DNA from: Actinomycetota bacterium
Lineage (GTDB): Bacteria > Actinomycetota > Acidimicrobiia > Acidimicrobiales > Acidimicrobilacustridaceae
DNA length: 48,003 nt
Direction of reading: 5' to 3'
Assembly (NCBI GenBank): GCA_009700115.1
Contig: WLMU01000006.1
Location: 1-48,003, forward strand
Position 1 is the first letter of the stretch. Every line of letters starts with the position of its first letter. Position numbers and translations under genes: made by a program. This document shows, piece after piece, positions 11,114-12,676 of this stretch. Below the pieces are notes generated by a model. That model searched no databases, was not told the DNA's origin, and saw only the letters and a list, made by a program, of their open reading frames with translations.

Positions 11114-12676
11114 ATGGCTCTAACCGATACCCGACCGGAAACCGGTACCGACGCAAGCGCGGTCGCCCCTTCCGTCGTACCCAGCCCTCTCACCATCTTC
11201 GGAACCGGTGACCACAAAGCCGTTGGCACGTTCTACGTGTTGGCCGCGTTGGTCTTCGGAATCGCTGGTTGGGTTGCCGCAGCGCTTTCTCTCGGACACG
11301 AGGTCGGATCCAATTCCTTCCTCAGCGGTTCGACGGCAATGCAGCTGGGCCAAACTTCCAATTTGGGCCTTATTTTATTGGTGATTGTGCCGCTGTTCCT
11401 TGGCCTCGGCACCTACATCGTTCCGTTGCAGGTTGGTGCGAGCACGGTTGCATTCCCACGTGCTGCTGCCGCCGCGATGTGGACATGGTTGCTTTCATCG
11501 GGCGTCTTCATTGTTGCGTCGTTCATCGACGGTGGCTTCGGCGGTTCGCGCGAAAAGTCCGTCAGCCTCACGCTCATGGCCCTCGGCGGTCTGATCGTTG
11601 CGTTGCTTCTCGGCACCGTTTGTGTGCTCACAACCGCGGTCACACTTCGTACGCCGGGCATGACGCTCGACCGAGTCCCGATGTTCTCGTTCTCGATGCT
11701 CGTCGGCGGAGCGATCTGGTTGCTCACGTTGCCGGTGTTGCTCGCCAACTTGCTGCTGATTTGGGTCGACCACCGCTATAACGGAGGCACGACCTTCGGT
11801 GCTGGCGCCATTCAGTTCGATCAGGTGTTGTGGATCACTTACGAGCCACAGATCTACGCCTTCTTGATCCCTGGCCTCGGCATCGTCGCCGATGTGATTG
11901 CCACCCTGACCGGCGCCCGCCTCGGTCAGCGCAACATTCTTCTGCTCGCCATTGGCGCCTTCGGGGTTCTTAGTGTTGGCGCTTGGGCGCAGCCCGCCAT
12001 CTACCCCTCGGCCTCGGACGACCTCGTCTGGCAGGCCATGGGGCTTCTCATGCTGCTTCCTACCCTGTTGTTTTTCGGCGGCGTTGCCAAAGCCTTCAAA
12101 GACGGCAAGCCTTCCCTGAAGAGCCCGCTCGGCCTCGCTGTCGTGTCGCTGCTCTTGACCTTGTTGGCCGTGCTTGCGGGAGCATTGCTTGCGATCACCC
12201 CGCTTGAACTTCGTGTCTCTGGTTTCTTTGAGGCCGGCCAATACGTTCTCGCCATTGCTGCTGCGCTCGCTGCTGCTGCTGCGGGTATTGGGTATTGGGG
12301 TCCGAAAATGACCGGTGGTCATTCGGCCGACGGTTTAGGCAAGCTCAACGTTCTCGTCCTGCTCGGGGGCGGAGCCCTTGGCGGACTTTCGCTCTGTGTG
12401 GTGGGTTTCTCACACCGCTTCACCGGGCTCGACGGTGCTCATGATGCGCTGGTGGTTGTTTCGATGATTGGTTGCGCGTTGCTCGCCTTAGGCGGCGCAC
12501 TTGCGCTTCTCGGCCTTCTCAGCGGTGCCCGCAAGGGTGCCCCCGAAGCCGCTGCCGATGCATGGGGCACGGGCCAGACCCTCGAATGGGCCTGTCCTTC
12601 TCCACCCCCTACTGGCAATTTCGGTGATCTCGCCATTGTTCGTTCGCCCGAGCCGTTGCTCGATGAGGAGGCCTGA
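11114..12676 (+). CDS. Cytochrome c oxidase subunit I-like protein lacking all metal-ligand histidines (degenerate paralog)
   Basis: Aligns with the CoxA at 15579: DHK/[55 protein letters not shown], C-terminal [15 protein letters not shown]. Ligand positions are S82, E244, Q293/P294, A374, Q376. Confidence 0.85.
   Translation: [520 protein letters not shown]

Follow-up and report, generated by a model that had tools for sequence, protein, structure and literature searches.

In the operon of a caa3-type oxidase from an Acidimicrobiia genome, we found a paralog of catalytic subunit I, here called PsI, that retains the COX1 fold with 12 transmembrane (TM) helices and contains none of the ligands of heme or CuB. 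The PsI gene opens a cassette of three genes, PsI-PsIII-X. We believe, with somewhat better than even confidence, that the cassette encodes a noncatalytic side module of the oxidase specified by the same operon and that this module now serves as a structural accessory. The window, i.e., the whole stretch of 48,003 nucleotides that was analyzed (contig WLMU01000006.1, assembly GCA_009700115.1), comes from a MAG that is 85% complete.

Results

The cassette is located between ctaB and the ctaC-ctaD-ctaE-ctaF-ctaG run, with intergenic gaps of 2 nt between PsI and PsIII and 6 nt between PsIII and X. The features of this region of the window are as follows.

8999..9913, minus strand: ctaA, heme A synthase, divergent from the operon
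10037..10933, plus strand: ctaB, UbiA family, heme O synthase; upstream border of the cassette
11114..12676, plus strand: PsI, COX1-fold paralog with 12 TM helices and without heme or CuB ligands (open reading frame, Pfam, alignment, AlphaFold2)
12679..13269, plus strand: PsIII, COX3-like paralog of subunit III, 196 amino acids (PF00510, E value 4e-15; conserved position)
13276..14133, plus strand: X, multi-TM protein of 285 amino acids belonging to no Pfam family (Pfam search, ortholog comparison)
14316..15536, plus strand: ctaC, subunit II fused to cytochrome c (CuA, CxxCH); downstream border of the cassette
15579..17594, plus strand: ctaD, canonical catalytic subunit I (six ligand histidines)
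17587..18222, plus strand: ctaE, canonical subunit III
18234..18593, plus strand: ctaF-like subunit IV (COX4_pro)
18621..19535, plus strand: ctaG-like caa3 assembly factor

Residues 572-631 of CtaD, a C-terminal extension, match Cyt_c_ox_IV (PF12270) and represent a subunit IV-like fusion.

PsI retains the fold of subunit I

As an earlier note on this DNA had reported, the PsI reading frame is long and intact; it starts with the ATG at 11114, stops with the TGA at 12676, and encodes 520 amino acids. It is uninterrupted in many assemblies, which rules out an assembly artifact or a pseudogene. PsI matched PF00115 (COX1) with an E value of 4e-33 and 115 bits, against 511 bits for the neighboring CtaD, and its scores with the NCBIfam subunit I models were far below the cutoffs (190 of 880 and 184 of 671). 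The top PDB relatives were actinobacterial CtaD chains, which aligned with residues 29-516. The structural comparison with A1-type subunit I proposed in the earlier note bore out the relationship: the AlphaFold2 model of PsI (pLDDT 86, pTM 0.88) superposed on CtaD of bcc-aa3 supercomplexes with TM scores of 0.84-0.85, at 25-28% identity in the structural alignment. Together, the model and the superposition identify PsI as a COX1 fold with about 12 TM helices. In databases, members of the PsI family are named "cytochrome c oxidase subunit I" or "cbb3-type."

PsI has lost cofactor and channel residues

Ligand positions were mapped by aligning PsI with 47 canonical subunits I and are given in bovine numbering. 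All six histidines that bind heme a, heme a3, and CuB were replaced in the window PsI: H61 by Ser82, H240 by Glu244, H290 by Gln293, H291 by Pro294, H376 by Gln376, and H378 by Val378. The earlier claim that every such histidine is gone was therefore correct, and four of its assignments (Ser82, Glu244, Gln293, and Pro294) recur in our alignment with canonical CtaD; its reading of the HFHY pair as Ala374/Gln376 was off by two residues. The histidines have not merely shifted, a possibility ruled out by the composition of the protein, which has six histidines in all (residues 34, 62, 220, 403, 434, and 443), with only the N-terminal His34 invariant across the family. The His-Tyr cross-link pair of the CuB site is likewise broken, with Tyr248 present and its partner histidine replaced by Glu244. 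Retention of this tyrosine, remarked upon earlier, holds for the window protein but is not a family trait, since 49 of 244 members have Phe instead.

The residues of the D-channel, D132 and N139 of CtaD (numbered in its open frame), correspond to T111 and A118 in PsI, as had been noticed before, and K359 of the K-channel (same numbering) corresponds to F320. Because the residues of both channels are lost, a proton channel role was rejected, and the repurposed channel suggested in the earlier note is unlikely. The propionate-side Arg pair is replaced as well. The neighboring CtaD has all six ligand histidines, and CtaC has both the CuA site (C-TEF-C...H..M) and the CxxCH heme c site. The window PsI is predicted to lack O2 reductase activity.

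Ligands were lost in a graded fashion

PsI formed one clade with a support of 100 in two trees, which were built without the ligand columns; the one extra row in the second tree is a duplicate of a PsI locus. In both trees the clade branched outside the operon-CtaD clade, ruling out PsI as a recent duplicate of the adjacent ctaD. All complete canonical subunit I rows had six histidines. An intact CuB triad occurred in 0 of 364 PsI members. The bis-His heme a pair was present in 129 of the 364, mostly close homologs of one deep PsI. A search from that type of protein, a single deep PsI, returned 120 homologs, in which H61 was conserved in 119 of 119, H378 in 120 of 120, and H376 in 100; all 120 had Arg at H240 and 119 had Asp or Glu at position 242. 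A second deep group reads H-Q-H at the heme positions, with Tyr-Ser-Glu at those of CuB.

Ligand loss is thus not invariant among orthologs, as deep branches keep heme histidines. The earlier note had regarded orthologs with histidines as evidence against its proposal of a metal-free scaffold; what we found is divided, with heme histidines in deep orthologs and the CuB triad in none. The metal-free description stands for the lineage of the window but not for those deep orthologs. Because the latter hold heme histidines yet never the CuB triad, the loss appears as a graded, evolutionary one. The ligand residues of the deep members predict that these proteins bind heme and copper. Isolated bis-His members (L041, from the cultured strain EGI L10123, and L106, L136, and L140) were scattered among cofactor-free PsI, a pattern suggestive of repeated, independent loss of heme ligands; loss, not regain, would be the natural reading of the direction of change. 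An HPE[VI] motif match in one protein (P0101) was a false alarm, as its ligand columns are non-His.

X of deep branches ends in a blue-copper domain

The X proteins of the deepest branches carry a cupredoxin domain at their C terminus (PF13473, E values of 1e-8 to 1e-11) with an intact type-1 copper ligand set, H...C..H...M; auracyanin A and amicyanin are among its nearest sequences in the PDB. The window X has no cupredoxin match and no Cys, the C-terminal domain kept by deep orthologs being gone. Its AlphaFold2 model had a pLDDT of 66, too low for a fold search.

The presence of a cupredoxin in X coincided with the bis-His site in PsI. Among 137 scored loci, 21 had both, 111 had neither, and 4 + 1 were discordant, and the type-1 copper ligands were accompanied by the PsI bis-His site in 21 of the 22 cupredoxin-bearing loci. 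The window locus has neither, X being without a cupredoxin and PsI without both heme a histidines. Fisher's p value for this association was tiny, but the traits are clustered in two basal clades, so the correlation represents few independent changes.

Several other loci are of note. In L256 (with L257; G411, G439), X retains the full cupredoxin and PsI has lost the heme histidines (N-Q-T), apparently a second, independent loss inside the heme-type clade. In family f2 (L157, L163, and L165), X has a C-terminal extension that by eye resembles a ligand-less cupredoxin; no Pfam match was found in this extension in L157 and L165. Families of the class without PsI (L083, L085, and L087) encode a shorter TM+cupredoxin protein downstream of ctaG, whose TM part and the C-terminal half of X are related. 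Given its presence in PsI-less families, the cassette may be younger than a blue-copper partner of this oxidase.

The cassette accompanies the operon oxidase

The gene order ctaB-PsI-PsIII-X-ctaC-ctaD was read in 113 of 141 loci of the window's Acidimicrobiia order, drawn from named MAGs and more than 100 further genomes. The other loci were on cut contigs or showed apparent swaps consistent with over-long ORF starts. Thus, virtually all of the ~140 loci of this one order carry the cassette between ctaB and ctaC. The conserved operon context described earlier is borne out order-wide, although that description was incomplete, PsI being part of a three-gene cassette and no lone gene.

X/PsI was found in 31 of 31 sampled genomes of the order with an operon-type CtaD (at least 61% identity) and in 0 of 16 without it, which carry other oxidases only; these are the genomes present in both samples, with counts read off two search tables. 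PsI thus shows the strict linkage to and co-occurrence with an active ctaD that characterize a pseudoenzyme and its partner. X matches at E < 1e-20 were confined to the window's order, and other families within the class encode an operon CtaD at 56-58% identity but lack the cassette. In a phylum-wide search, divergent PsI and canonical CtaD were not distinguishable by score; absence outside the order was therefore judged from the X search and the trees, and divergent members may exist there.

Complex III is present in the class. A link between PsI and the type of complex III was rejected as unspecific, since split cytochrome b is found class-wide, also without PsI. No link of PsI to ACIII (NrfD) was seen, the distribution of ACIII being patchy. 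Some members of the order (e.g., G014, G047, G055, and G059) have a second A-type oxidase ~46% identical to CtaD, and in part of the order this oxidase and a long fused cytochrome b replace the operon oxidase and the split cytochrome b. No cytochrome b was seen in the window MAG (G000), though it is present in a same-genus genome; MAG incompleteness is probably the cause. Four loci (L003, L004, L016, and L042) come from records titled "Bifidobacterium breve" MAGs, whose organism labels look wrong: they carry the Acidimicrobiia operon and a PsI 44-98% identical to that of the window.

PsI is under purifying selection

The median pairwise NG86 dN/dS among close relatives was 0.127 for PsI, well below the bound of 1 named in the earlier note, 0.141 for PsIII, and 0.108 for X. 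The same measure was 0.051 for CtaD and 0.040 for CtaE. PsI evolves 2-3 times faster than CtaD, and its constraint thus looks looser. With catalytic residues lost and fold and purifying selection kept, PsI is in these respects like a pseudoenzyme partner of an active paralog.

Among 35 diverse PsI members, 47 columns were invariant. In cofactor-free PsI, conservation was highest in cytoplasmic-side loops (0.66) and lowest in periplasmic loops (0.52; permutation p of 0.0002), sidedness being assigned from the known topology of subunit I. Canonical CtaD showed no bias of this kind. A C-terminal S..PL.D motif is common to heme-type and cofactor-free PsI and is not found in CtaD. Distances of PsI, PsIII, and X tracked those of CtaD after removal of CtaB and CtaC (partial r of 0.51-0.59). 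Shared phylogeny and saturation (the median PsI distance is 1.5) are confounders of this correlation, which lends weak support to an association with the active oxidase.

Between the window and L003, dS forms a mosaic, with 0.13 for PsI and 0.18 for PsIII but 0.64 for X and 0.84 for CtaD, which suggests that the 5' half of the operon underwent homologous replacement.

Discussion

PsI is a variant of the heme-copper oxidase (HCO) family that shares its fold and its operon and has none of the defining catalytic features examined here. Its closest counterpart is the A-family (A1) subunit I, actinobacterial CtaD (NF050116, PF00115; PDB 6adq/6hwh/7qhm), with which it has in common the 12-TM COX1 fold and the cytoplasmic loop motifs PLQ.GA..AFPR, PGM, W.PK.TG, and EW..P. 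It differs from CtaD in the replacement of all six ligand histidines, of the residues of both proton channels (K and D), and of the Arg pair. PsIII, which matches COX3, follows PsI as CtaE (PF00510) follows CtaD, but falls far below the subunit III equivalog cutoffs (48 of 190). The gene order of the cassette is I-III-X, and it includes no CoxB-type subunit II. Deep X resembles membrane-anchored cupredoxins of the auracyanin/amicyanin/plastocyanin type (PF13473/PF00127) in ending in a type-1 copper domain and differs from them in its long multi-TM N-terminal part; the window X is without the domain. NO reductases and other HCO relatives belong to the same superfamily and have an altered CuB or FeB site. 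They keep a working binuclear center, whereas CuB is lost in all PsI and heme ligands are lost in most of its lineages. In the actinobacterial bcc-aa3 (III2IV2) supercomplex (e.g., PDB 6adq), noncatalytic subunits stabilize complex IV; to our knowledge, none of its accessory subunits is a degenerate copy of subunits I and III.

Few catalytic proteins are as conserved as HCO subunit I, and the six histidines serve as its definition. A published HCO classifier drops sequences without six histidines (PMC3084760). The PsI family would therefore be invisible to such a classifier, which is one reason why it may have been overlooked. A full-text literature search, with subscription papers outside its coverage, found no description of the family.

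In the reading that we favor, the module would descend from an ancient paralog of an A-family oxidase, with CuB already gone in the common ancestor of all known PsI members. Because of the loss of CuB, such proteins could not have reduced O2 by the known mechanism. The ancestral module would still have held low-spin heme a, and sometimes heme a3, and would have been paired with a blue-copper X, probably carrying electrons on the periplasmic side or taking part in redox sensing. Hemes and the copper domain would have been lost later in most lineages, including that of the window. What is left, a 12-TM subunit I/subunit III pair with the membrane portion of X, would most likely attach to the active CtaC/D/E complex or its supercomplex, with the conserved cytoplasmic face and C-terminal tail of PsI as the docking surface. 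The window-type module has no known site for carrying electrons, and a structural I/III-like accessory of the active oxidase seems the most economical reading of the sequences. PsI-PsIII-X could also be kept beside the oxidase genes for regulatory reasons.

A more specific proposal, which we hold only tentatively, is that the CuB-less "cytochrome a" I/III pair and its blue-copper subunit were an additional electron-transfer or sensing arm of the caa3 oxidase whose cofactors were stripped in parallel lineages, leaving an active and a metal-free I/III core in one oxidase.

It is also conceivable, though rather unlikely, that PsI, PsIII, and X are dedicated to the assembly or quality control of CtaD and do not belong to the mature enzyme, acting, for example, in subunit I-III insertion as a template or chaperone or in heme a delivery. 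The cassette does adjoin ctaB and lies near ctaA and ctaG, genes of heme A synthesis and assembly; PsI mimics the fold of CtaD and strictly co-occurs with operon ctaD. However, a full I-III pair with a third membrane protein is large for a chaperone, and a cofactor-free PsI lacks the heme ligands needed to pass heme on. Oxidase assembly does not generally need the cassette either, because the 56-58% identical operon CtaD of other families of the class does without it.

We give slightly less credence to the idea of a separate membrane complex that has a redox function of its own, either blue copper-to-heme a electron transfer or redox sensing, in which the window-type module would act through an unrecognised cofactor or as a transporter. 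Heme histidines and type-1 copper ligands in deep members fit such a complex, and the conserved Cys170 and the recurrent Gln/Pro at ligand positions reflect constrained rather than random substitution. Against it, window-type PsI has a single family-invariant histidine, the N-terminal His34, its X has no Cys, the D- and K-channel residues are gone, and the periplasmic face is the least conserved part.

Slow decay of a dispensable oxidase remnant, retained only through its position inside an essential operon, is very improbable: PsI does evolve faster than CtaD and cofactor sites were lost progressively, but a dN/dS of ~0.13, reading frames intact in relatives across many families, three genes that stay together in order-wide synteny, strict co-occurrence with operon ctaD, and the invariant columns of diverse members all agree with the earlier judgment that this is not random decay.

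Cofactor-free PsI and its CuB-less relatives with heme ligands constitute a natural series for the order of metal loss in an oxidase, and this series lets one ask what a COX1/COX3 core does without chemistry. The aerobic respiratory complex of this Acidimicrobiia order may have an architecture unseen in any solved oxidase. Overall, PsI looks like a part of a respiratory enzyme that was decommissioned and then reused.
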